Shown here in pieces: positions 2,762 through 44,346 of a DNA stretch of 64,000 nucleotides. Numbering within the stretch: position 1 is the first letter of the stretch; each line of letters starts with the position of its first letter. A program made the translations under genes and the position numbers. The notes under the pieces are model-generated. The model made no database searches. It saw only the letters and a list, made by a program, of their open reading frames with translations, and was not told where the DNA came from. This stretch comes from Protonemura montana (lineage: Eukaryota; Arthropoda; Insecta; Plecoptera; Nemouridae): the NCBI GenBank assembly GCA_947568835.1, contig OX387604.1, forward strand, positions 26,255,076 through 26,319,075, in the 5' to 3' direction.

Positions 2762-5700
2762 TTAGTCCCACTCTCCTATAAACATAGCTCTTGGCTGTTG
2801 TGGAATATACGCCCTCGTGGGAATTGGCAGTCGACCGTAGATATGGTTATACGGCGAGTCCAAGGCCTCCGAATCTAAAAAAAAAAAAAAACGCCATAGA
2901 TTAAAAAACTACAACTGATAAGTCATAATATTAGGTGCATCTTCTGTTTGTGTGATAATTCCTCTTACCCATTCCGCTCTCGTAGCTCTTAGCGTGCCAC
3001 ATCATCGGTTGGGGCTGTCGATGGTTGTTATTGTTATTATTGTTGTTATTATTGTTCATCATATGGCTGTGGTGATACTGCTGTTGGACGGGAAGTCCTG
3101 GCTGGGGGAAGACTCGGACGTCCTTCGTCTTTGTCTTGAAGTTCGGGACTCGAGCCCTCATCCCGCAATAATACGGGTCATCTACAAAGCAAAGTTCTTA
3201 AGTTAAAATCCTCGACTTCGGAAGACTTCCGTCCCAAGTGTCATTTCCTTGCACTGTTGCCTCTGCGTGCTCTGGTAAATCATGTCAATCATGTCAATTA
3301 GGTCAGTCATGCATATTGAATAGAGCCTGCCACGTGTATGATCTCGATTCTCAATGGCTGGTCAATAAATACATTGTTTTTACATGTAATTATAGCATGC
3401 ACTTTCACAATCGGCAGGTAAAATACGATCCACGACTATCGCGATATCGCCAAGGAGGCCCACTAACAGTTCGCTTCGAAAACACTTAGCACTGCGACCC
3501 GTACTCTCTTTAACTGGAGTAAACAGAAAATCACTTCCTGCTTCCGTTTCGGTAGGAACAAGACAAATAGAACCTGATTTCGAATGTGTTCACTTACCGT
3601 ACTTCTTGTTGTCTTTAGTTTTGTCTCTACCTCTAGACAGGGCAAAAGGCTTGAGCCTATTCTCTTCCTCGATGTCGTCATAGTCAGGCTGCAAAGAAGA
3701 CAACATTGTCAGTCATTTATTGGAACAATTTGGACGAGTTCGGAAGTTACTGGTAACCTACGAAGCCTTACCTTAGGTATTTCATGGGGATAACCGTTGC
3801 TGTCCCTTGGTGGCAATTTCGGTGGCTTGTCGCTTCTGCGTTGCAATAGCTTCTGCTGTTGCTGCAACAGCTGTTCCCTGGTGGCAGCAACCATACCGGT
3901 GCCTGTTCCGGTTCCAGTTCCGATGCCCGAGCTGCCGCTAGATCCACCGCTTCCTGCCACGCTGTAAGGGTCCTCGTCTGGGATGGGGATCCTGGGTCGA
4001 TTCCTGATGTCTACCACTCGTTTTACTGTAACATGAAGACACATGGTCAGCAAAGTCCGCCCCCGCTCGCAAGTTCCACTACTGGCTATCATCATGGGCA
4101 GGAATTCTCCAAAAATAATTTGACAACAACCTTCAAAATTCAGCACAACCTGTCCATTTATCATCCCCCAGTTTTAAACGAACATCGAGGTTTATCTGTG
4201 TAACGAGACGAATCAATTGGCTTCATAAAAATATCGAATTTTCAAAAAATACACATATTATTCTCGGTCGGCGATAAGATCTTTGGTAAACCCACTAACC
4301 TAGCTCGACTTGCATACTTGAAACCAAAACAATCCGCAACCTATGAATTTATGTTACACTGGTAGACAGAGAGGAAAATAGTCAATTATAAGAGGGTCTT
4401 CTGTCCTCTTCTACAATGCTTCTAGCTGTGACCGAATAGGAAGTAACTATGCAAAAAGTGACCAACTTAAACTATTAATAACTGACAGTTTCCCGCCAAG
4501 TGTTTGCTTCGACCCACGCCTCGAAATACGAACAAAAACATGGGAATTTATATATTTGTCGTAATTATAACTAATCTTATTCTTGTTAATTTCATCCTTG
4601 TGACTGATAATCGCAAGTAGTTTGTAAAAATATAATTTCCTTTTGATAGTAGGTGCAATTTAAAACAGTTAGTCGGCTAGATTTTGCGAGCAGTTCGTCG
4701 CTTTTTCGCCCACTGCGTCACTGCGAAATGCCCTTCGTGTCGCTGGCCTTAAGTCGAAAACGAAATCATCGTCGATTGCAGAAGCAAACAATGTGCACCA
4801 TGGACATTATTTATTTGCGTGGGAACTCCTCCAACAGGTGACGGACAACGGAAGAGGCGAACGCATTTTTCAAGCGTGATTATAAGATGCGTGGCCAGAC
4901 TTTTTATGTGGGGCATTGCTGGAGTAATCAATTGTCCATTCAATTTTCCATACAGAGAGTTGAATACAAACCGAGATTGATCCATTTGAACAGCTTCGAA
5001 TCTAGATCATGAGAAGAATCATTTAATCCTCATTAAAACATCTACTTGCGGCTAGTTGTCTGTTCTTCTCAACATTCACGATTACGTATACCTTAATATA
5101 CAACCTCTTCGGAGATGATGTAAGTAATGATGACCAAACAATTCACCAAATTTGCATTTCCTGCTAACGCATACACCCTGCAGCAAAATGATAGTCAAAG
5201 CAAAGCCATGGGACCTCAGTCCAATAAGAAGATGACGAGGATAGCTAAGAACTGCCCTGTGAGCACCGATACCAACCCACACAATATAAGAACACACTTT
5301 TTGATTTCATTCTTCAGCAATTAGTTAAGCTTTTTGCTGACGCGCCATGCAAAATATGTGATCATCCCATCTAAGTCTACCTCATGTTACGTCCCACGCA
5401 GCAATCGTACGCAGCTCATCGAATGCTTTGCGAATAGTATTAATGATGCGTAATGTTGTGTTGTTTAGATACTTGGAAAAAATATCATATACAACTCCAC
5501 ACAAAGACACACTCCTTTGAACTCGGATTTTTTTGTTCGAGATTGGAATTGTTTTTAAGGGTTTAATCTTTGGTCGCATCTTTGCATGACATGCCATGCG
5601 GTATTTCTTGCCTGGAGGTAGGCGGGACTTGAGCATATCCATAGCAACCACGTTGATGATGAGCACCCAGATGGGGCAGTCAAGAATCTCTGCCTCGCTC

Positions 5701-22612: not shown

Positions 22613-24201
22613 CAAATCCAAGATTGTTTTACCGATGTCGACTTCTACTTCCCTATTAAGATCTCCAATTGATCCAATGGAACAAATGCAAGAGTGGCAT
22701 TCAACAACCACCAAGCGATATACTCTTGAGCTGACTTGGTTTTTCCTGGACTCTGGAATGATCTACATTATATATCGGTAATTTCGTAGAAGACAAATGT
22801 GTACATTTAGTAGAAGTTTGCTGTGGTCAATTTTATCGCACGCGTTTAGCCAAACCTAGAAAAACCCTCACAAGTGAAGCAACATTGCACACTGAGTCAA
22901 GTATTTAAGAGTGATGCTTCCTCCTATGCAAGCAGAGGTCCTCGCGGTCACACTTTTGTGGTCTGAAATTACTTGAAAAGATCTGAAAAATCAGTGTAAA
23001 GAGGAAAAGTTTGTCTATGGTTGCTACTCAATCAGATTTTGATATTTTGAAAAGGCGCTAAAATGCACATATTTGGAGGCTTTGTGTGAAGACACCGAAG
23101 TTTCAATTGAACAATAAAATAGTATCAACCATGACCACAGTCTTTCTCTATGCAATGGTTTTTTAAGATGTTTTGAACCTCAATAAAAACTTTATCGCTT
23201 GGCTTGAGTCGAAGCCAAGTATTAACTAAGCATGTGCAATGAAAACCCTGATTTCGAACAAAAAAAAATCTCCGTATTCTACTTTAAAGTCTTTGATTTT
23301 GAAAACTTTGATTTCACGTCAACCATAATCTGCTTTCAAAACGGAATCCAATTTACCAAAAAAAAAAAACTTACAATTTTTGTGTACATTCTTATTCACT
23401 GCGTTTGTCTTCAACGTCCTTACAGGACACCTCAAAACACATCGCAGTTTCTGTTCAGGAGCGAAGCTAGAAGATCTGTAATTGCGTTACTTAAACTTGC
23501 AGCAAAACTTCAATCTCACAACAACGCTTTTCGCTTTGCATACCGTATTTTAGAAAATACACTAAAAAGCAGTGGTTTTATTCGTGCTCTCCCACGGGTC
23601 AAGTATACTAAGCTACTAAGAAACTAATGTATTCACTTCCCATCTTGCATTGGTTATATGAATTAGCATTCTTCTTCGTTTTCCCTTTCTATCCATTTTT
23701 GTCATCTGGTCAAAACGGCGCAAAAGTGCCAAACTCGCAGTCAATAGATTCCGCAGCTCTGGCATCGCATATTCATCGCTTATTGTGCATCGTATTTTCT
23801 TGTGCACATATCCAATGCAACCTCTGATGGGACAATGGGTATAAAACACTTCCTTGCCACTGTCTTTCACTTGATTTCAAAACATTGTACCACACACATC
23901 ACCTACAATACATAATGCACCTGAATTTCTAAAAGCTTTACCTCCAAATACCGTCTAAAGTGTAGTGCACCTTGTTTAAAATAGTTTGCCATTTGCCAAC
24001 AAAGGTTTCAATCTTGGATAATTACTAGTTGCCTTGACGGCCTTTAGCAAGTAACTTTCTCTGCTGAGTTTTTGATTGAGAGCATTGACTTCAGGCTAGT
24101 TAGCAATAACAGCGAGAGCTGGATAGTTAATACTGGTAACACACTAGGCTTGACCTATCAACTTATTGACAAAACAACACTCGCCAGTACGTGGTGCCTT
24201 C

Positions 24202-24478
24202 CCAGGACAACCCTGAACAACCCTGGACACCCCTGAACAACCCTGGACACCCCTGAACAACCCTGGACAACCCTGGACACCCCTGAACAACCCTGAACAA
24301 CGCTGGACAACCCTGGACAACCCTGGACAACCCTGAACAACCCTGAACAACCCTGGACAACCCTGAACAACCCTGGACAACCCTGGACACCCCTGGACAA
24401 CCCTGGACAACCCTGGACAACCCTGGACAACCCTGAACAACCCTGGACAACCCTGAACAACCCTGAACAACCCTAGTG
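24202..24478. repeat. 10-bp minisatellite (CCCTGGACAA / CCCTGAACAA)
   Basis: About 27 copies of a 10-bp unit with CCCTGGACAA, CCCTGAACAA and CCCTGGACAC variants. The three minus-strand frames here read as 10-residue repeats (GLFRVVQGCP-like), as expected of any 10-bp unit without stops. Confidence 0.95.
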
Positions 24479-24734
24479 CACACCCCTGCAAACCCTCGAT
24501 GTTACAAAATGAACGGAATTTACTGATATTTATTGTCATTGAGCATGGAAAGCTGCAACTCTGGTATATTAACATATTACAAGAATGTTTGAAATAATAT
24601 GCCGAAATATTGTTCTCAAATTGTTTGGTCTCTGAGGTTGTATCCAAACCTTCGAACAGTTTAATTATGGTCAAAAACACGTGATATTTTGGTCGGCCGT
24701 CCGTTGTCTTGGTAGAAATTAAATAAGTATCGAA

Positions 24735-25213
24735 CTCCCTGGGCCCTGGGCCTGGGCTACCTGGGCCTGGGGCTCCTGAGCCTCCTGGGCTACCTGGGGC
24801 TCCTGTACCTCCTGGGCTACCTGGGCCTCCTGTACCTCCTGGGCCTCCTGGGCTACCTGGGCTACCTGGGGCTCCTGAGCCTCCTGGGCCTCCTAGGCTA
24901 CCTGGGGCTCCTGTACCTCCTGGGCTACCTGGGCCTCCTGTAGCTCCTGGGCCTCCTGAGCTACCTGTACCTCCTGGGCTACCTGGGCTACCTGTACCTC
25001 CTGGGCTACCTGGGCCTCCTGTACCTCCTGGGCCTCCTGAGCTACCTGTACCTCCTGGGCTACCTGGGCTACCTGTACCTCCTGGGCTACCTGGGCCTCC
25101 TGTACCTCCTGAGCTACCTGGGCCTCCTGTACCTCCTGGGCCTCCTGAGCTACCTGGGCTACCTGGGCCTCCTGTACCTCCTGAGCTACCTGGGCTACCT
25201 GGGCTACCTAGTT
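24735..25213. repeat. 9-bp minisatellite encoding Gly-X-Y triplets on the minus strand
   Basis: About 53 copies of a 9-bp unit (CCTGGGCTA, CCTGGGCCT, CCTGTACCT, CCTGAGCTA). On the minus strand this reads as a collagen-like run of Gly-X-Y triplets ([12 protein letters not shown]) inside a frame that opens at 25271. The run has no charged residues, no flanking collagen propeptide and no visible splice signals, so it is listed as a repeat and not a gene. Confidence 0.9.
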
Positions 25214-26132
25214 CTACCTCGTGACACGGATATGTTTGAAACTTCACTGGTGACCGCATTTTCTCCTGCATTTACTCGGCACCGTCGCCTAGACTTGGCG
25301 CAGCTGCCGCGGTGAAACTTCTCAAATGTTCACAAATTGGCAAATAGTGTATCAATTGCGTGCTTCTTGCACCTCGCTGTACCGCTCGCCACTGCATCGC
25401 TCGCCACTGGGGCTGCTTGGAAAGGTCACTAAGAGAATAAATACTCTGCTTCACTGACATGAAACTTTAAATCCCACCAAATGAAATCAAAAGTAAATTT
25501 GCAACATTTTTGTAAACAACCGTTCGCGGTATTTGGGACATGCACGATGCATTTTCATTTCGGAGGTTGGAATCACTGATTTTCTAATAAAGTGATTTCC
25601 CAAATTCTCTCGAACCACGCTGAACTGACAGATCTCAATTCAGAAGCTGAGACGTCCGCTCAAAATTACCGAAATCATAAGTCGTATCCAAAAAAAAAAT
25701 ATATAACAGATATCAAAAATAAAATAATATTTCCAACGCTTTCCCAAAATTTTTTCAATTGTGTAAGCCCCAAAAAAAAAAATCACTCACCTTCAATAGT
25801 ATTCCAAAATAGTTAATCCAGTGATTTGGCCACTAGCACTTTCGTAATCCACTTTCAACACAGAGTTGAAACTGCAACATATGCTTTGAATTTCAGATAA
25901 GGAACATTGTGAGAACAGAACACTGGCACGGAGGGGTGGGGGGTTACCACGGACAGCACTGCCGAGCGACAGCACCGAGCCAGACAAACTCACGCGACCA
26001 CGGTTCTTGCAAGACTGAAAGTCAGTCTCCTAGTCGCCGCCTGCAGACCTCAACACCGCTCGCTGGAAACTTTCTTTATTCTCTTTCGAGCAACGCGCTC
26101 TCCGAGCTCCTCAAGGTACACATAACTGCTAC

Positions 26133-30682: not shown

Positions 30683-32907
30683 ATGGAGTCAAGCTCTCTG
30701 AACAAATTCGCCAAACTGGACTTCCCGATGTTTTGGAGTCTAGAATCTCTACGAGTCGATGGTTCAATTATTCTGACGGAAGCATTCGGCAAGCGGAAGT
30801 CACTAGAAACTACCGACATGCCCTGGCGTATGTTCGCTATCGACCTCGTCATTTGTTTTGAACAGTTCGGGCTAAAAAATCACGAGAAGGCTCTGGAATC
30901 ACTGATCAAATGCGATGAGGACATCGACGCTATAATGTCTTGGGACAACCCCTTGTCTGTGTACTGTCCAGAGGCTCTCGAGCACGTGGTAGTCGCCTCC
31001 CGTGGCTGGATCTTAGCAGCAATGCCGGGCCTTCTAGCCAGAGGAACCACTCTGCTGGAAGACTGCTTAGTTAGGTTCAAAGAAAACATCCGGGTCCCTG
31101 AGTTTCAATCCATGTTGATTGGGATACGAAGCGCCGTATTCATGGCGTATGGAGTGCCTGGTATGCGTCAGGCACTAGACTATGCTGGAGAAGCTATGAA
31201 GCTCGATAACGAAGTGGCTGAGTGGCATTTTCTGTATGGGAAATGCACGGGACGGTTGCGACGGGTCTTTACATACACTGATGTTCCATCCGACTTCGAG
31301 TTAAAGCACCACAAACTTGCTGTTACGTTGACAAATGGCCAGGTGCCGTACTACATTGTCTACGTGGCACAATGCCAGAGGGAAATGGCGTTTAGACTTG
31401 GAAGGTGCGAAGAGGTCGACGTGCCGTTGTCACCAAAGTGCATTCGACTATTGGATGAGAGTAATGTAAACTACCGAGCTGCTTACGAAGTGGCTCCAAC
31501 CTGCAGTCACGTGCTCACCAGATGTGCACTGGGATTTTTGAAGTTACCAGATCACTTCAATGATGTTGGTTTGGCTAATAAAATTATGGTGAAAGTCTTG
31601 GATTGGTGTCCCGAAAACCCGATGGTGCTTCACATTTGGGCCCTGATTAATGAAAGAGGATATCGAAATCCGAAAACGGCGTTGATTTTCTTTCAGAAGG
31701 CAGCTGAAAAGAACATTTTTGTTGGGTGGAAGGACCTTATACGGCTTACCTATCTTGAAAACAAAAAAGCATACGACCCGGTACCTGATTTAACACATAT
31801 GCTCACTTTATTTCCCGATGCTTACCTCAAGCAAAGAATTCTGCTTCAGATTGGCTCGTTTTATTTGTTTCAAAAGAACAATGTTTTCAAGGCTTTGGAT
31901 TACATCATGGAAGTTTTCAACAATGATCCTGGCTCACAAAATCTCACGGTAAATGTATTATGTGTTTGGTCTTCCTATTTAAACCCTCCATTTATTGCTT
32001 GGTACTGATTCTAAATGTTTTTTTTTTCTGTTTAGATTCATCGCAATATCTTTATGGGATTGGGACGCCCGATAAATTTACTGCAAATTACTTACGACTA
32101 TTGCCGATCGAGGTGTGCCCACCCAAAAACAAAAGATTTTGTGAGAAAGAAATGTAAAGCAGTTGTGATCATTTGGACCTTAATGTATCCGGAACTTTCG
32201 GAAGTGACACTCACAGATTCAAGGAGAGAAATCATGCACGAATCGTTCGTTTACACCCACCCATGGTTCCGAAGGCAAGGGCGCGAGCGTCGCCGAAGAG
32301 AAGTTAAACAACCCGTCAAAAAAACAAACAGCCAAAGCCGCAGTTAGTATTTTACACTTCTTAGCATGCAACAAATCAAAACCAAACAATTATGTTCAAT
32401 GTTTTCAGAATAAAACTAAACCAACAAACATACTTTCTAAATTACAAAACAAAAATTGCATCCTGTAATGAAAAACTGTTGGTTTCAGGTAAAAGTTGTG
32501 ATCAGGCAAAAGTCGAAAACGAAAATGAGCCCATAATACAGCCTTATTGCCAGAGGAATACGACACAACCCCAGGGGGATCCCTACATTCCAAGGTCATA
32601 TAGGCCTGACGTACCAAGGTCATATAGCCCTGACGTTCCAAGGTCATATAGGCCTGACGTTCCAAGGTCAGTTTCTGTTGGAAATGAGAAGCGAGCTTTG
32701 TCAACGAACTGGAGAACTGAATCTCACTCGGTCGGAGGAACGGAGCCCATCGTACCCGAGTCTAGATTCTTCTCACAGGATGCAAGAAGCTACAAGACGT
32801 CTTCCAGTGCAACTGCATGGAGTGCAGTGAAAGAACGCTGGCCAGCTCGGAACGGCACCAGTCCCAGATCAACCAGCCCTTACAACGACAGGCACAATTG
32901 GGTATGA
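30683..32907 (+). CDS. TPR-like helical-repeat protein, three exons, function unknown
   Basis: Exons 30683-31948, 32036-32342 and 32489-32907 join in frame (donors ACG/GTAAAT and GCA/GTTAGT; acceptors TTTAG and TTTCAG) to 663 aa. I do not recognise the family. Exon 1 is rich in amphipathic helix pairs resembling tetratricopeptide repeats, for example GMRQALDYAGEAMKLDNEVA and NPKTALIFFQKAAEKN. Exon 2 ends in a very basic stretch (RRQGRERRRREVKQPVKKT), possibly nuclear or RNA-binding. Exon 3 encodes a low-complexity Arg/Ser/Tyr-rich tail with three to four copies of the octapeptide PRSYRPDV. The start follows an acceptor at 30661-30665; the reading frame continues upstream only into intron-like sequence, so a 5' UTR intron is likely. 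The tail may continue in another exon, since the stop lies just after TTGG/GTATGA, a possible donor. Confidence 0.75.
32578..32672 (+). repeat. In-frame 24-bp coding repeat (PRSYRPDV)
   Basis: Three full 24-bp units (CCAAGGTCATATAGGCCTGA plus CGTN) and a fourth partial one inside exon 3 of the TPR-like gene. Because 24 is a multiple of 3, copy number can change without a frameshift. Confidence 0.85.
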
Positions 32908-35639: not shown

Positions 35640-36640
35640 CTTTTTAGGACCGCAAGTCAATCGCAACAGAGCAAGTCCGTTACTTACCACAACAAATTTT
35701 TTAAAGTTTTATTTTATAAAATCGTGGCTTATGAAATAGCATATAATCAACAGCAATAATCCTATCCCTTCAGTTGCTGTCACAAATTAGTGCGAATTAG
35801 TTTCTCTAGGTACAGGAAACATAAAGTGTCCCCGAGGCAAAGGTGAAAAAGAAATTCCTTTTGTTCCTCCGAGCAGGTATTCAACGCGAACCAGTGTTGC
35901 TTACCCAACTGACTTGACGAAGCGACAGGGCAGGGAACATCTATAAACGTGGTTTATAAAACGATGATTTTGACGTTGAAAAGGCTGATTAATATAAAAA
36001 TCTAACGCCAATCTAACGCATAAAAATACCTCTTTGTTGTCGCCAACACCACTCGTGCCGCAGGGTGGTCACGCCCCTACGAAGAGAACGCCCAGCCATG
36101 GACAAAAAAAGCTAACATTTACCAAAATTCTGTTTCATTCATTTGCTAGAAAATGAAGGGGGGGGGGGTACCTCCTTGAATTTTTCACAGAAGAAAGAGT
36201 GCAGAAGGTAGATAGAAGATAAATGTATCACGATTTTTACAAGTTTTATATTTTCATTTACTCAGAGTAAATATTAAATGTAAAGTACGTATATCCATTA
36301 TAATATCCATTAATATCCAAAATATCCAACATAAAAGCCAAAAGATTTCTCTGTGGTTCACGGTGCGACTTCACACGTCTGTATGCTCGGTTAAAAATTG
36401 AAAATGAAGAAAACCTGGAGGAGCTGTGATCCGGCAACAAAGTTCCACTGGAGTTTCTCCATTCGCGCTGTAATACATCATCGCGCTAGATCTTGCCCCT
36501 GCAACTATGCAACGATGCAACTATGCAACTATGATGGGGCAAATCCTTCTATTTCGGCGCTGTAACTGGAATTTTCTTCTCGATTGATGGCTTCAGATAT
36601 TTGGCCAAACTACTTCTAACAAAGAAAAATAAAAGATAGT
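35640..36640. other. Non-coding stretch
   Basis: No exon, repeat family or RNA gene recognised; a G10 run occurs near 36160. Confidence 0.5.
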
Positions 36641-36647
36641 CGGCGGG

Positions 36648-36712
36648 AATCGAACGCGTACCTCCATGTACTGCAATCACACACCTTATCCGCTCGACCA
36701 CGAGTCAAGATG
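36648..36712 (-). repeat. tRNA-like module (type II head)
   Basis: Minus strand: ACTCGTGGTCGAGCGGATAA (D-arm-like) and GCGTTCGATTCCCGC (T-arm-like). Stems are imperfect; probably a SINE head. Confidence 0.45.
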
Positions 36713-36861
36713 AACATATGGTAAGTGTTCTTTGTATTACCAAACTATGAAGAAGAGAAGCAAGTTGGTAATTAGGAAATATATTGGTTACTTCAGTCGA
36801 AAATTGAATTGTTAGCAATTTAGTTGGTTTATTTCCCGTACCTAAGAACCGTGGAGCGTAG

Positions 36862-36930
36862 CTCTGTAGTAAGCGCTGTGCTTCGTGTCGCGCGGGTGAT
36901 GCGTTCGATCCCGGCGCAGCTGCTTTTTGG
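36862..36930 (+). repeat. tRNA-like module on the plus strand
   Basis: GTAGCTCTGTAGTAAGCGC (D-arm-like) and GATGCGTTCGATCCCGGCGC (T-arm-like) surround a poor anticodon arm. It faces the minus-strand module at 36648-36712. Confidence 0.4.
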
Positions 36931-37008
36931 TTTATTACCATCGAACTTAAAAACAATTGATCAAATATGAGCAATTATTAAACGTCCAGAAGGTAGTACC
37001 AGATTCTG

Positions 37009-37023
37009 CCAGCAGGTGGCGCT
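37009..37023 (+). promoter_or_regulatory. CTCF-like motif 1
   Basis: CCAGCAGGTGGCGCT contains AGGTGGCGC, the core of insect CTCF sites, and fits the vertebrate core CCASYAGRKGGC. Carried by a composite SINE body. Binding is unproven. Confidence 0.4.
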
Positions 37024-37231
37024 GATTGAATTTAACACTAAGTACCTACCGTTCCTATATACTTGATGCTAGAAGTAGGAGCTGCACACGGGGATAGGTG
37101 GGGTTTGGGGTCGTGGGAACGTCCCGCAAAATTGGCGGGTGCGACTGGCGCGAAGCGCCAGGAGCCCCCGGCAATTTTGCTACTGTCTTAACCATTCGCC
37201 CCAAAAAGAAAAAAAAAATCCACACAACGTT

Positions 37232-37318
37232 GTATTAAGAATGTGATTCGAACCTAGTATGTCCACTTTCTTTCGTCGAAGTTACTATTTTTTTCCATGC
37301 CTTTAACCGCACGAGCAT
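37232..37318 (-). repeat. tRNA-like SINE head (Ser/Leu-like)
   Basis: Minus strand: TGCTCGTGCGGTTAAAGGCA followed about 45 nt later by CTAGGTTCGAATCAC. The D arm and T loop are clear, and the spacing suggests a variable arm. Confidence 0.55.
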
Positions 37319-37776
37319 ACAGACATTATAATATGGTTCATTTTTGAGATATTGAAGTCTCCTGACTCCTGCTACCACTGGTGGTTGTTGGATGCCGTAT
37401 TGCAACAGTAACGATTCCCCCGTCGAGCACATTCGATGCAGGTAGCGGATACCTTTGACGGTTCCTTCGTACATTTTCGCAATTTTCTTGGTTGGCACAT
37501 GGTTATGACAGTGGCAAGATTGACGGGCGCTCCTGGCGCTTTGCGACAGTCACGTCCGCCAAATTTGTTTCCCACTACCCCAAACACCACCTATACCCCA
37601 GTTTGGATTTCATTTTGGGCAAATAGTTTAGACAGTAGCAAAATTGCCGGGCGCTCCTAACGCTTCGCGCCAGTCGCACCCGCCAACTTTACGGGACGTT
37701 CCCACGACTCGTGTGCAGCTCCTACGTCTAGCATCAAGTATATAAGAACGGTAGGTACATAGTTTTAACTTCAATC

Positions 37777-37791
37777 AGCGCCACCTGTTGG
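37777..37791 (-). promoter_or_regulatory. CTCF-like motif 2
   Basis: CCAACAGGTGGCGCT on the minus strand, in the inverted repeat unit. Confidence 0.4.
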
Positions 37792-37883
37792 CAGAATCAG
37801 GAACTACCGCCAGTCTATAACGTATCAAACTATTGAACAAAAATCAACATTTTTAAACGTCTAGAAGGTAGTACCATATTCTG

Positions 37884-37898
37884 CCAACAGGTGGCGCT
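37884..37898 (+). promoter_or_regulatory. CTCF-like motif 3
   Basis: CCAACAGGTGGCGCT, 93 bp from motif 2 and facing the other way. Confidence 0.4.
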
Positions 37899-38099
37899 GA
37901 TTGAATTTAACACTAAGTACCTACCGTTCCTATATACTTGATGCTAGACGTAGGAGCTGCACACGGGGTATAGGTGGGGTTTGGGGTCGTGGTAACGTCC
38001 CGCAACATTGGTGGTTGCGACTGGCGCGAAGCGCCAGGAGCGCCCAGCAATTTTGCTACTGTCTCAACTTAAAAAAAAAACAAAAAAAAATCCCCACAA

Positions 38100-38192
38100 C
38101 GTTTTGGGATGAACGTGATTTGAACCTAGTACTTTCACTTTCTTTCGACTAAGTGACCATTTGTTTCCATGCCTTTAACCGCACGAGCAAGC
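38100..38192 (-). repeat. tRNA-like SINE head (Ser/Leu-like)
   Basis: Minus strand: GCTCGTGCGGTTAAAGGCAT and CTAGGTTCAAATCACGTTC. Same module as 37232-37318, similar spacing. Confidence 0.55.
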
Positions 38193-38888
38193 TGACATTT
38201 CTGTCCTCATGCACTTTTGAAATATATAGGTCTCCTGACTCCAGCTTCTTCTGGTAATATTGGATGCCGTTTTCCAACGGTAAAATGGATTCCGTAAAGC
38301 GGATTTAATCCAGCTACAGGGTACCTTGACGATACCAAACCAGCGACTATACCAATGTGCCACACAGGCGGCCGTGTACTGAGGAGAAAGATTAACCTAT
38401 TTAATTTCATGTTTGAAAATCCGGCTCACTGTGACGCTACATGACTCCTGAGTCTCCTGACTCCCGCTACCACTGGTGGTTGTTGGATGCCGTATTGCAA
38501 CAGTAACGATTCCTCCGTCGAGAACATTCGATCCAGGTAGCGGATACCTTTGACGGTTCCTTCGTACATTTTCGCAATTTTTTGGTTGGCACATGGTTAT
38601 GACAGTGTCAAGATTGACAAGCGCTCCTAGCGCTTCGCGCCAGTCACGTCCGTCAAACTTGTTTCCCACTTCCCCAAACACCACCCATACTCCGGTTTGG
38701 AGTTTTTTTGGACGAATGATTTAGATACTAGCAAAATTGCCGGGCGCTCCTGACGCTTCACGCCAGTCGCACCCGCCTATTTTGCGGGACGTTACCACGA
38801 ACCCAAACCCCACCTCTGCCGCGTGTGCAGCTCCTAAGTCTAGCATCAAGTATATAGGAACGGCAGGTACTTAGTGTTAACTTCAATC

Positions 38889-38903
38889 AGCGCCACCTGT
38901 TGG
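38889..38903 (-). promoter_or_regulatory. CTCF-like motif 4
   Basis: CCAACAGGTGGCGCT on the minus strand, in another inverted repeat unit. Confidence 0.4.
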
Positions 38904-38996
38904 CAGAATCTGGTACTACTGCCAGTCTCTGGGGTATCAAAGTATCGAACAAAATATGAAAATTTTTAAACATCCAGAAGGCAGTACCAGATTCTG

Positions 38997-39011
38997 CCAA
39001 CAGGTGGCGCT
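38997..39011 (+). promoter_or_regulatory. CTCF-like motif 5
   Basis: CCAACAGGTGGCGCT, 93 bp from motif 4 and divergent from it, repeating the arrangement of motifs 2 and 3. Confidence 0.4.
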
Positions 39012-39084
39012 GGTTGACGTTTGCAGTTTTGCTACTGTCTAAATCATTCGCCCAAAAAAATATCGAAACCAAGAGGTGGTCTGA

Positions 39085-39178
39085 ACGGGAACCGGACCTA
39101 GTAGCTGCGCGTTTCCTCGAGGAGGTGACCAATTGATTCCATGCCTTTAACCGCTCGACCAAGCGGACGTGTTCAGCT
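39085..39178 (-). repeat. tRNA-like SINE head (Ser/Leu-like), best preserved
   Basis: Minus strand: CTTGGTCGAGCGGTTAAAGG, CCTCCTCGAGG (variable-arm-like) and CTAGGTCCGGTTCCCG. It has the highest GC and best D arm of the family. Confidence 0.55.
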
Positions 39179-39807
39179 CTGCATGTTTGAGATATAAGTC
39201 TCCCGACTCCAGCTGCCACTGGAGGATGTTTGATGTCGTATTCCAATGGTAAAATGGTTCCTCCGTCGTGTGGATTTGATCCATGTAGCGTGTAAGTTCA
39301 TCGTTACCGAAGCAGCGACTATACCATTGTTCCACGCAGACGGCCATACATAGCAAAGAAAGATTAACCGATTTGAATTTCAATATCTAAAAACTTGGCT
39401 TAGTGTAGTATTACAAGACATCGACCGCACCCTTTGTTTAGTTTGCAAACAAGAGCTACCACCTCATCTAGCAGCTCAAACGTACTAGGTCGCCACACCT
39501 AGCAGTGCACAAGCACTCGATAACTAAAAAATATGGGTTCTAACCATTTGCTGCAAGCTAACGTGAGAACGGCTTTAGAGGCTGACTAGAGGAACGCCAG
39601 TCTAAGACCGATGCACGAGCACAGCGCCCCTATTTACTCTTATTTGTTAAGTTTCACCAAACACACCTTATCGTGTTAAGACGCACCGTGACCCCCAGCG
39701 CAATCTGTTGGATATCAAATGTACTCGATCAATCAATGCTTTGCTGGACTTCGGTCGGTAACCTGGATATTGATACGCCTGATGATTAAAAAATACATTT
39801 ATATTTA

Positions 39808-40443
39808 CCGAACGGTTTGGCGTGTTGGAAACACTGCGCGGAGTCAGGTATTGGATGGGTGACCATCATACACATGACTAGTTCTGTTCGGGAGAGAGGT
39901 TCGAGGGATGAAAGTTAAGCAACACTGCGCTGGGTCAGGTATTGGATGGGTGACCATCATACACATGACTAGTTCTGTTCGGGAGAGAGGTTCGAGGGAT
40001 GAAAGTTAAGCAACACTGCGCGGAGTCAGGTATTGGATGGGTGACCATCATACACATGACTAGTTCTGTTCGGGAGAGAGGTTCGAGGGATGAAAGTTAA
40101 GCAACACTGCGCTGGGTCAGGTATTGGATGGGTGACCATCATACACATGACCAGTTCTGTTCGAGAGACAGGTTGGAGGGATGAAAGTTAGTACAGCAAC
40201 ATCACTCGCCTTGCTTATCAACCTCTCGAAAGCATGGATTTGTGGAGGAATCCTGTTTTTCGCGTTGTACCGTCCTCCGGAAGGGACGTAAAGCCGGTGG
40301 TCGTGCCGGCTACGTGCCGGCACCGGGTTTCCTCTCCTCCCTTCTTGACTATGTTAGGTTCATCATCATCCACTCATTCACCGACGCCATTAGACCAGTG
40401 CCGCGTGGCCAGAGGTCAAAACAGTCCATCGTTAAACACCTCA
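39808..40443 (+). mobile_element. 5S-headed SINE with about five tandem 5S-like heads
   Basis: After ACCGAACGGTTTGGCGTGTT, a 91-bp unit holding AAGTTAAGCAACACTGCGC and GTATTGGATGGGTGACC repeats about four to five times (39830-40180) before one normal SINE body and the end TCGTTAAACACC. The internal frame is damaged (missing segment near 40300). Confidence 0.9.
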
Positions 40444-42822: not shown

Positions 42823-44346
42823 ATGCCTAATCAGGATCACGAAGATGATGTGGAGCGGTCGGAGCGTCTCACTAACGCTGACTTCAGGAGATTGTTAATG
42901 ACTCCTCGGTCGTCAGTTCCATCGTCGTTGCCGGCAGCTCATGCTCCCGTCAGCAGTAATCGTGATGCTCCCATACCTGCACAGACTGTGGAAGGTGAAG
43001 ACCGAGCAGAAAGACGTCGTAAAAAGAAAAGCTTCTATGCCAAACTTAAGAAACAAGAAGATGATAAGATGGCAGAGTTGGCCAAAAAATATCGCGATCG
43101 GGCTGTTGAGAGACGAGATGGAGCTAATCCAGATTACCAGGCAGAAGATCCGATGTCATCGGCTAGTGGATATCGAGCAGTTGCTCCAGATCTGAAGTCA
43201 GGTATGGATCAAGCTGAACGCAGGAGACAGATGATTCAAGAGTCAAAATTCTTGGGAGGAGATATGGAACACACTCACTTGGTCAAAGGACTGGATTATG
43301 CGCTGTTACAAAAGGTACGCAGTGAAATACAAAACAAAGAGCAAGAAGAAGAAGATGAACTAGAAAAACTTGTAAAACCTAAGAAGGAAAAGAAAGATGA
43401 AGTTGAAGAGATGGAATTCAAAACTAAAATTGGGCGTAATATTTACCGGGCTGCTTTCCCATCAAAAGTACTCGAGAAAAATGAGTTATTTGCTCCGGGT
43501 CGTATGGCATATGTGATTGACTTGGAAGATGAGTTTGCAGATAGCGACATTCCTACCACGGTTATTAGAAGCCGCGCTGACTGTCCGAGCCTGGAAACAT
43601 CAGCGACATTAACAACCAACGACATTGTAATCAACAAGTTGGCTCAAATACTTTCCTACTTGAGGCAAGGCGGTCGCCACAGCAAAAAATCCCGTAAAAA
43701 AGATAAAGGCCGAGTTGTGCAAGATATAAAGCTTGAAAAACCCCAGGAAGAGAGCATCTATGGTGAAATTGGTGATTACACCCCATCCACTTCAAAAATG
43801 GCTGAAAATCGTGAGAAACAGAGAGGACCTTACTTCGAGAAGCCGGAAGAAAACTGGGTCAGTGCTGATAGCACGAGGATAGAAAGCAGAAAGTCAGAGG
43901 AAGTCAAGAAATCCTCTTATGTTAAAGAAAATGCCAGTCGTTCCCAACAACTTTTAACAAGGCTTGCTGCTGAACCCGAGGGGTATGCAGAATGTTACCC
44001 TGGGCTGGAAGAAATGCAAGATGCAATTGATGATTCAGATGATGAAGTCGACTACACAAAGATGGATCTTGGTAATAAAAAGGGCCCCGTTGGTCGCTGG
44101 GATTTCGATACTCAAGAGGAATACAGCGACTACATGAACAACAAGGAAGCTCTTCCAAAAGCTGCATTTCAATACGGAGTGAAAATGGCTGACGGACGTC
44201 GGACCAGAAAAAATCACAAGGAGAAAAATGAAAAGGCCGAGTTGGATCGAGAATGGCAGAAAATTCAGAATATTATACAAAAGCGCAAAGGACCATCTGC
44301 AGTTTCTACCTCTAATGATTTTGCATTCAAAAAGCCTAAATATTAA
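42823..44346 (+). CDS. IK: RED/IK, spliceosome-associated protein, single coding exon
   Basis: A 507-aa frame from ATG (MPNQDHEDD) to TAA. Strong match along the whole RED protein: LTNADFRRLLMTPR near the N-terminus, RRRKKKSFYAKLKKQE, LAEKYRD-type motif LAKKYRDRAVERRDGAN, ESKFLGGDMEHTHLVKGLDY, PGRMAYVIDLEDEFADSDIP, LTTNDIVINKLAQILSYLRQ, VDYTKMDLGNKKGPVGRWDF, NNKEALPKAAFQYGVKM, and a final FKKPKY where human RED ends KRPKY. RED is a nuclear component of the spliceosomal B complex and is needed for splicing and mitosis. The long Arg-Glu-Arg-Asp repeat of vertebrate RED is missing, which explains the shorter length (human about 557 aa). The frame has no introns. An upstream branch point and acceptor favour a genuine gene with a 5' UTR intron over a processed retrocopy; no decay is visible. 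Confidence 0.95.
   Translation: MPNQDHEDDVERSERLTNADFRRLLMTPRSSVPSSLPAAHAPVSSNRDAPIPAQTVEGEDRAERRRKKKSFYAKLKKQEDDKMAELAKKYRDRAVERRDGANPDYQAEDPMSSASGYRAVAPDLKSGMDQAERRRQMIQESKFLGGDMEHTHLVKGLDYALLQKVRSEIQNKEQEEEDELEKLVKPKKEKKDEVEEMEFKTKIGRNIYRAAFPSKVLEKNELFAPGRMAYVIDLEDEFADSDIPTTVIRSRADCPSLETSATLTTNDIVINKLAQILSYLRQGGRHSKKSRKKDKGRVVQDIKLEKPQEESIYGEIGDYTPSTSKMAENREKQRGPYFEKPEENWVSADSTRIESRKSEEVKKSSYVKENASRSQQLLTRLAAEPEGYAECYPGLEEMQDAIDDSDDEVDYTKMDLGNKKGPVGRWDFDTQEEYSDYMNNKEALPKAAFQYGVKMADGRRTRKNHKEKNEKAELDREWQKIQNIIQKRKGPSAVSTSNDFAFKKPKY

Follow-up and report, generated by a model that had tools for sequence, protein, structure and literature searches.

Outward-facing pairs of CTCF-like words in a palindromic repeat family of the stonefly Protonemura montana

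Introduction

The spreading of CTCF words by repeats is established in mammals, and the B2 short interspersed elements (SINEs) of mouse reportedly carry CTCF sites. Here we analyse a stretch of 64,000 nucleotides from the stonefly Protonemura montana (GenBank assembly GCA_947568835.1, contig OX387604.1, positions 26,255,076 to 26,319,075 of the forward strand), called the window throughout, in which a composite non-coding repeat element holds five exact copies of a CTCF-like word. As with mouse B2, copies of a repeat have distributed CTCF-type words across a genome. The carriers differ: B2 is a short tRNA-derived retroposon, whereas the arthropod carrier is multi-kilobase, palindromic and often arranged in tandem, and its putative CTCF sites come in outward pairs.

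A second parallel comes from placozoans, where the terminal inverted repeat of Mutator elements holds a loop-anchor motif; there the loops were mapped, the factor behind them is given as unknown and CTCF is stated to be absent in non-bilaterians (PMC12221973). In both cases an inverted repeat carries a word with a known or putative link to genome folding, hence the inverted word pairs. They differ in that the placozoan loops were mapped, whereas here the word is like a CTCF site and a CTCF is encoded. Our literature searches, which covered open-licence papers, found no report of an arthropod repeat that spreads CTCF words. The present sites share with arthropod CTCF sites an identical core, AGGTGGCGC, and differ from them in that these predicted sites sit in repeats. 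We favour, at a probability of roughly one half, a reading in which the words are bound by host CTCF and an outward-facing pair next to TATA-containing blocks is of advantage to the element.

Five CTCF-like words in the window

The word CCRRCAGGTGGCGCT has exact matches at 37009(+), 37777(-), 37884(+), 38889(-) and 38997(+). The core AGGTGGCGC occurs in the window at the same five positions only, with a chance expectation of 0.08 for this 9-mer, and is thus exact, across all nine bases, in 5/5 sites; we take it to be the arthropod CTCF core, and text searches for its letters gave no usable source. When up to two mismatches are allowed in the 15-mer, six matches are observed against 0.11 expected, and none of 100 shuffles reaches six. 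The sixth is a weak match at 39697, with two mismatches. The five exact sites are as follows.

37009..37023, + strand, CTCF-like motif 1, CCAGCAGGTGGCGCT
37777..37791, - strand, CTCF-like motif 2, CCAACAGGTGGCGCT
37884..37898, + strand, CTCF-like motif 3, CCAACAGGTGGCGCT
38889..38903, - strand, CTCF-like motif 4, CCAACAGGTGGCGCT
38997..39011, + strand, CTCF-like motif 5, CCAACAGGTGGCGCT

An earlier, sequence-only reading of this DNA had noted five copies of CC(A/G)(A/G)CAGGTGGCGCT, each inside a repeat unit, and had called the motif match direct. All five are indeed exact and all lie in repeats, and the match is as direct as claimed. That reading had also described two divergent pairs about 93 bp apart. 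Their orientation and spacing hold, since both pairs face outward with gaps of 92 and 93 bp between footprints; their independence does not, for they derive from one duplicated palindrome.

The motifs sit in arms of about 200 nt that are mutually inverted, and two of them back to back form a palindrome whose 99-nt arms are separated by about 58 nt. Each arm is organised as the 18-base word CTGCCAACAGGTGGCGCT followed, about 25 bases further outward, by a TATA-containing block, the second conserved block; the arm of the fifth motif ends shortly past the motif.

36974..37205, + strand, arm 1, with the first motif (repeat comparison)
37613..37808, - strand, arm 2, left half of palindrome 1 (repeat comparison)
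37867..38067, + strand, arm 3, right half of palindrome 1 (inverted-repeat pairs)
38720..38919, - strand, arm 4, left half of palindrome 2 (inverted-repeat pair)
38952..39021, + strand, arm 5, truncated, with the motif and without the TATA-containing block (sequence and repeat comparison)
37050..37081, + strand, second conserved block of arm 1, CGTTCCTATATACTTGATGCTAGAMGTAGGAG type (this and the next three from sequence and from conservation across copies)
37719..37750, - strand, second conserved block of arm 2
37925..37956, + strand, second conserved block of arm 3
38831..38862, - strand, second conserved block of arm 4

Inverted arm pairs are 93% (37710-37808/37867-37965), 91% (37868-38067/38720-38919) and 92% (36992-37090/37710-37808) alike, and direct repeats join 37710-37857 with 38822-38969 (86%) and 36974-37110 with 37849-37985 (91%). 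The motifs face outward because the arms form a palindrome, and the two pairs are not independent because the inner unit is duplicated, as the direct repeats indicate. The pair layout therefore reflects a single structure and its duplicate rather than two coincidences.

The element that contains these arms is larger than the interval 36640..39420 that had been proposed for it.

35735..39797, + strand, composite non-coding repeat that holds the motif array, its left end firmly supported and its right end an approximation
36338..36377, + strand, left member of a subterminal inverted repeat, pairing with 39672-39711 (83%)
39672..39711, - strand, right member of the subterminal inverted repeat, holding the sixth motif match (39697-39711, two mismatches)

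At 35735 homology starts sharply with L042, a copy on the same chromosome (95.6%, 968 nt). On the right, homology with several copies stops at about 39792-39798; three copies share sequence beyond, so this end can be given only approximately. A single-unit copy, L068, has the same subterminal inverted-repeat arrangement (75 nt, 80%), and the window copy is therefore an element with a duplicated middle unit.

Copies across the genome

In 258.5 Mb, the 15-mer CCAACAGGTGGCGCT has 318 copies (163 and 155 on the two strands) and its reversed control none. The shorter forms are also in excess over their reversed controls, with 687 against 61 for CAGGTGGCGCT and 1974 against 996 for AGGTGGCGC; a strong genome-wide enrichment of the motif within this repeat family, which had been put forward as a way to check the idea, is thus present. 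A second word of the arm, ACTTGATGCTAGACGTAGG, occurs 279 times against 0 for its control. Of the 91 CAGGTGGCGCT sites in the first 27.98 Mb of contig C1, 78 have another such site within 2.5 kb, so that a good part of the surplus of near-perfect CTCF words there stands in family-like clusters. Such nearness is expected of an arrayed palindromic family and is not proof of family membership.

The palindrome recurs elsewhere with other spacings between motif starts: several arrays have 107, one at C1:20.14 Mb has 129-133, and a subfamily of 4-kb copies has 171. The same structure with differing spacings suggests that the inverted pairing is old and was retained while the spacing drifted.

The best-scoring copies are 93-96% alike, and in copies so close to each other any word of the founders would be abundant. 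This, together with the fact that duplicated units account for both pairs of the window, would fit a dead or dying repeat, whose founders held the word by chance and in which the word is common since the family is common and young. We regard this explanation as unlikely, on grounds that come from the comparison of arms.

Conservation of the word

Conservation was looked at in three ways. In the first, 12 stretches fetched via the DNA beside the word, and not via the word itself, gave 53 arms, 47 of them distinct. Among these 47 the word shows 28 changes against 73.4 for the average 15-base window, 2.6 times fewer, which a dead repeat would not lead one to expect. In the second, 13 representative arms less than 85% alike were found by a profile; the word ranks first in conservation among their 15-base windows, with 0.041 changes per site against a mean of 0.194. 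That the word persists between such subfamilies as its neighbours change likewise argues against carriage by chance. In the third, arms were located on contig C1 by the other conserved block; here 19 of 55 arms are without the exact 11-mer, a loss that a decaying repeat would readily explain.

The 4-kb subfamily offers a further comparison. In 13 of its 14 copies, AGGTGGCGC is retained in the partner motif that had not been used to select them, and this unchosen motif shows one change over 15 sites in the 14 copies, a level of conservation that 10% of windows share.

Several observations count against a reading centred on CTCF. In the first look, 11% of the 15-base windows are as conserved as the word. 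Among close copies the TATA-containing ACTTGATGCTAGACGTAGGA does better than the word (22 changes over 20 sites against 28 over 15), and within the word it is the G and C of the core GGCGC that vary most; the CTCF core is not the centre of the constraint. The second look is biased toward the word because its profile was built from 92 motif-bearing arms. It found 114 arms, six of which have no motif-like 18-mer; these six were dropped, as were four window arms and 21 anchor arms (a single exact 15-mer for each locus chosen by motif), and of the 83 kept only 63 retain the exact core. Natural variants of the word in the arm set are AGGTGACGC and AGGTAGCGC. In the third look the exact 11-mer is rightly placed in only 36 of 55 arms (16 of 27 clusters). 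In the 4-kb subfamily, finally, the motif is only level with the best 4-10% of 15-base windows, its neighbouring bases being retained too. Taken together, the word is better conserved than most of the arm, though imperfectly and within a longer conserved module, and selection on it is clear between subfamilies and moderate among close copies.

The conserved stretch of the arm far exceeds the CTCF-like word, and the element may therefore keep it for its own needs. The word could belong to the machinery of the element itself, as a site where a transposase, a replication factor or some host factor that is not CTCF acts together with the TATA-containing block, its likeness to a CTCF site being coincidental or inconsequential. 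We hold this possible, though doubtful. It would explain why conservation in the arm extends over several blocks, GTTAACACT and CGTTCCTATATACTTGATGCTAGACGTAGGAG among them, of which the word is just one, why the second block is the better conserved among close copies, and why word and block hold their orientation and spacing in the inverted arms; DNA elements often have ends or subterminal sites in such an arrangement, and the many other C2H2 genes of this genome offer candidate factors. It does not explain why conservation between subfamilies peaks at the CTCF-like word and not at the other block, and a random 15-base word would seldom match a known architectural motif so fully. Nor was a transposase found, in a search that looked only at frame lengths (longest stop-to-stop frame 122 aa in repeat locus L058 and 136 aa in the window element).

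The class of the repeat

The sequence-only reading had called the repeat a SINE. What stands of this is the presence of modules resembling the B-box of polymerase III promoters; the repeat itself is multi-kilobase and non-coding, with inverted arms and often in tandem arrays.

37203..37327, - strand, B-box-bearing, tRNA-like module, with further copies at 38075-38199 and 39047-39171

B-box words lie on the minus strand of the window element at 37254, 38126 and 39282, and an A-box word stands upstream of the B-box word in one of these three. Their number exceeds the mean per shuffle in the window element (3 against 0.475), in L058 (4 against 0.51) and in L068 (2 against 0.225), which is what a tRNA-derived SINE family with units merely arrayed would predict. 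The unit, however, measures about 4 kb both in the window and among the copies of the 4-kb subfamily, against about 100-500 bp for a SINE, and the common ends of the 4-kb copies, the inverted arms and the tandem arrays (periods near 816-976 and 1787) do not suit one either. No tRNA was detected in the window element by ARAGORN or Rfam, in ten loci by ARAGORN, or in seven loci by Rfam. A SINE origin is thus highly improbable. Plant microRNA names that Rfam placed on the palindromes at a lenient threshold were far below gathering scores and were taken as chance.

The 4-kb subfamily comprises 14 of 20 loci (its assembly has 0 mismatches in 69,576 overlapping bases), with common ends CAGTGTCGGACTGG at 5' and ATCACATCTA(G) at 3'. 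By eye these ends are not inverted copies of one another, though the inner arms and the subterminal repeat are inverted. A target-site duplication of five bases is possible in L069; L070, with the same kind of site, does not fit. A Helitron would begin with TC, end in CTRR and sit between A and T with no duplication; here the 3' ends are CTA or CTAG, the 5' end is CAGTG, and the insertion sites are not uniformly A/T.

As a separate observation, L058 3058-3327 and 13 related 4-kb copies on C1 hold a row of perfect G+C hairpins with stems of 13-28 bp and three-base loops, GAA or GGA on either strand (folding z -22.65). Across the 14 copies the loops occur in both orientations at L058 3095-3141 (GGA 9, TCC 5), 3140-3198 (TTC 11, GAA 3) and 3202-3230 (TCC 8, GAA 4, TTC 2). 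The stems remain paired while the loops vary, as if the centres had flipped.

The CTCF gene

The preferred reading needs a host CTCF, and the sequence-only reading had named its absence as fatal. The gene is encoded at C4:8088186-8090104, which, with the enrichment of the motif, favours that reading on both refuting conditions examined here. Arthropod-style zinc-finger queries matched it in four places.

C4:8088186-8088338, CTCF zinc-finger match, 80% (query 13-63, zinc fingers 3-6)
C4:8088379-8088540, CTCF zinc-finger match, 70%
C4:8089227-8089376, CTCF zinc-finger match, 98% (query 61-110, zinc fingers 3-6), with one TAG inside the stretch
C4:8089820-8090104, CTCF zinc-finger match, 86% over 95 residues (zinc finger 7-10 query)

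Human-type zinc-finger queries and the pattern TQSGTMK had revealed no CTCF in the genome, the former because the exons are short and the identity of human and insect fingers is low, the latter because TQSGTMK is not the arthropod form. A genome without CTCF, perhaps that of a ctenophore, in which the motif would serve another factor, was considered on that account and was overturned by the match on contig C4. Human and insect CTCF fingers are given as 44-53% identical (PMC2749850), and CTCF is reported in almost all arthropod transcriptomes examined (PMC5094011). Numerous further C2H2 genes are present, with dense zinc-finger clusters at C1:19.77-19.84 Mb and at C15:3.24-3.41 Mb, many matches in the latter recurring at steps of about 26 kb. 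The proteins of L009 and L011 resemble Kr-h1 and Kruppel.

Within the CTCF gene, of which 391 bases were read, two 137-nt exons stand in tandem at C4:8088196-8088332 and 8088392-8088528 (27-163 and 223-359 of locus L073), with a 59-nt intron between them. Acceptor and donor are present on both (CAG/GTGAGC and CAG/GCAAGC), the two agree in phase, and each is 2 modulo 3 in length, which means that including both would break the frame; on this sequence the exons are apparently mutually exclusive. Each encodes the end of zinc finger 3 and the whole of finger 4, with 36 of 46 residues alike, and the codons differ by 24 synonymous and 10 amino-acid-changing substitutions. The helix of finger 4 is VEMSKLKRH in one version and VELSKMRNH in the other. 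In the CTCF of fly and Trichinella a single exon holds the entire finger region (PMC2749850). Among the matches listed by a literature search for CTCF with mutually exclusive exons, no title concerned CTCF's own exons.

Zinc finger 4 presumably reads the middle of the CTCF-like word. One may therefore speculate on a conflict between host and repeat over folding, in which hundreds of near-perfect, outward-paired CTCF words would be met by splice forms with swapped finger 4 that treat repeat-borne and ordinary sites differently. We think such a conflict very unlikely.

The surrounding locus

An open frame and an exon flank the element.

30683..32005, + strand, upstream open frame, with 0 Pfam families at E 0.001
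42823..44343, + strand, exon of the RED gene, downstream of the element (PF07808, E 3.9e-104; PF07807, E 4.8e-54)

The Pfam matches bear out the earlier naming of RED. The upstream gene had been called TPR-like, a name that is not confirmed since no family matched. It had further been suggested that the cluster forms a chromatin boundary between these two; a boundary at this locus is rather unlikely in our estimate.

Other features of the window are a tandem array at 39830-40190 with a 91-bp period, partly 5S-rRNA-like by eye, five full 5S-like matches elsewhere, and long G+C-rich frames at 24144-25271 with collagen-like GXY triplets and other-frame readings. Nuclear copies of COI lie at C4:5760925-5762262, C4:5776811-5777755 and C12:1429388-1429777, one of them as complete as that on the mitochondrial contig C34. 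Read by eye over 10,000 of its 15,885 bp, C34 carries ND2-COI-COII-ATP6-COIII-ND3 on one strand and ND1 on the opposite strand, which, with the proteins like Kr-h1 and Kruppel, points to an arthropod.

Implications

The model we favour would run as follows. A presumably mobile non-coding family carries a palindromic module of two inverted arms, each with the word and its TATA-containing block. Host CTCF would bind the words, and the element would keep them since an outward CTCF pair helps it, for example by opening chromatin or by shielding its own transcription. In this way its copies would distribute outward-facing CTCF pairs across the genome.

If CTCF does bind the copies, they would provide an example from arthropods of chromosome folding rewired by a repeat via CTCF words. 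The role of CTCF-site orientation in arthropods is debated, and the outward pairing would make each copy a ready-made test of it. The swapped exons for zinc finger 4, in turn, would let one ask whether a single animal uses two CTCF proteins that differ in their site preference.

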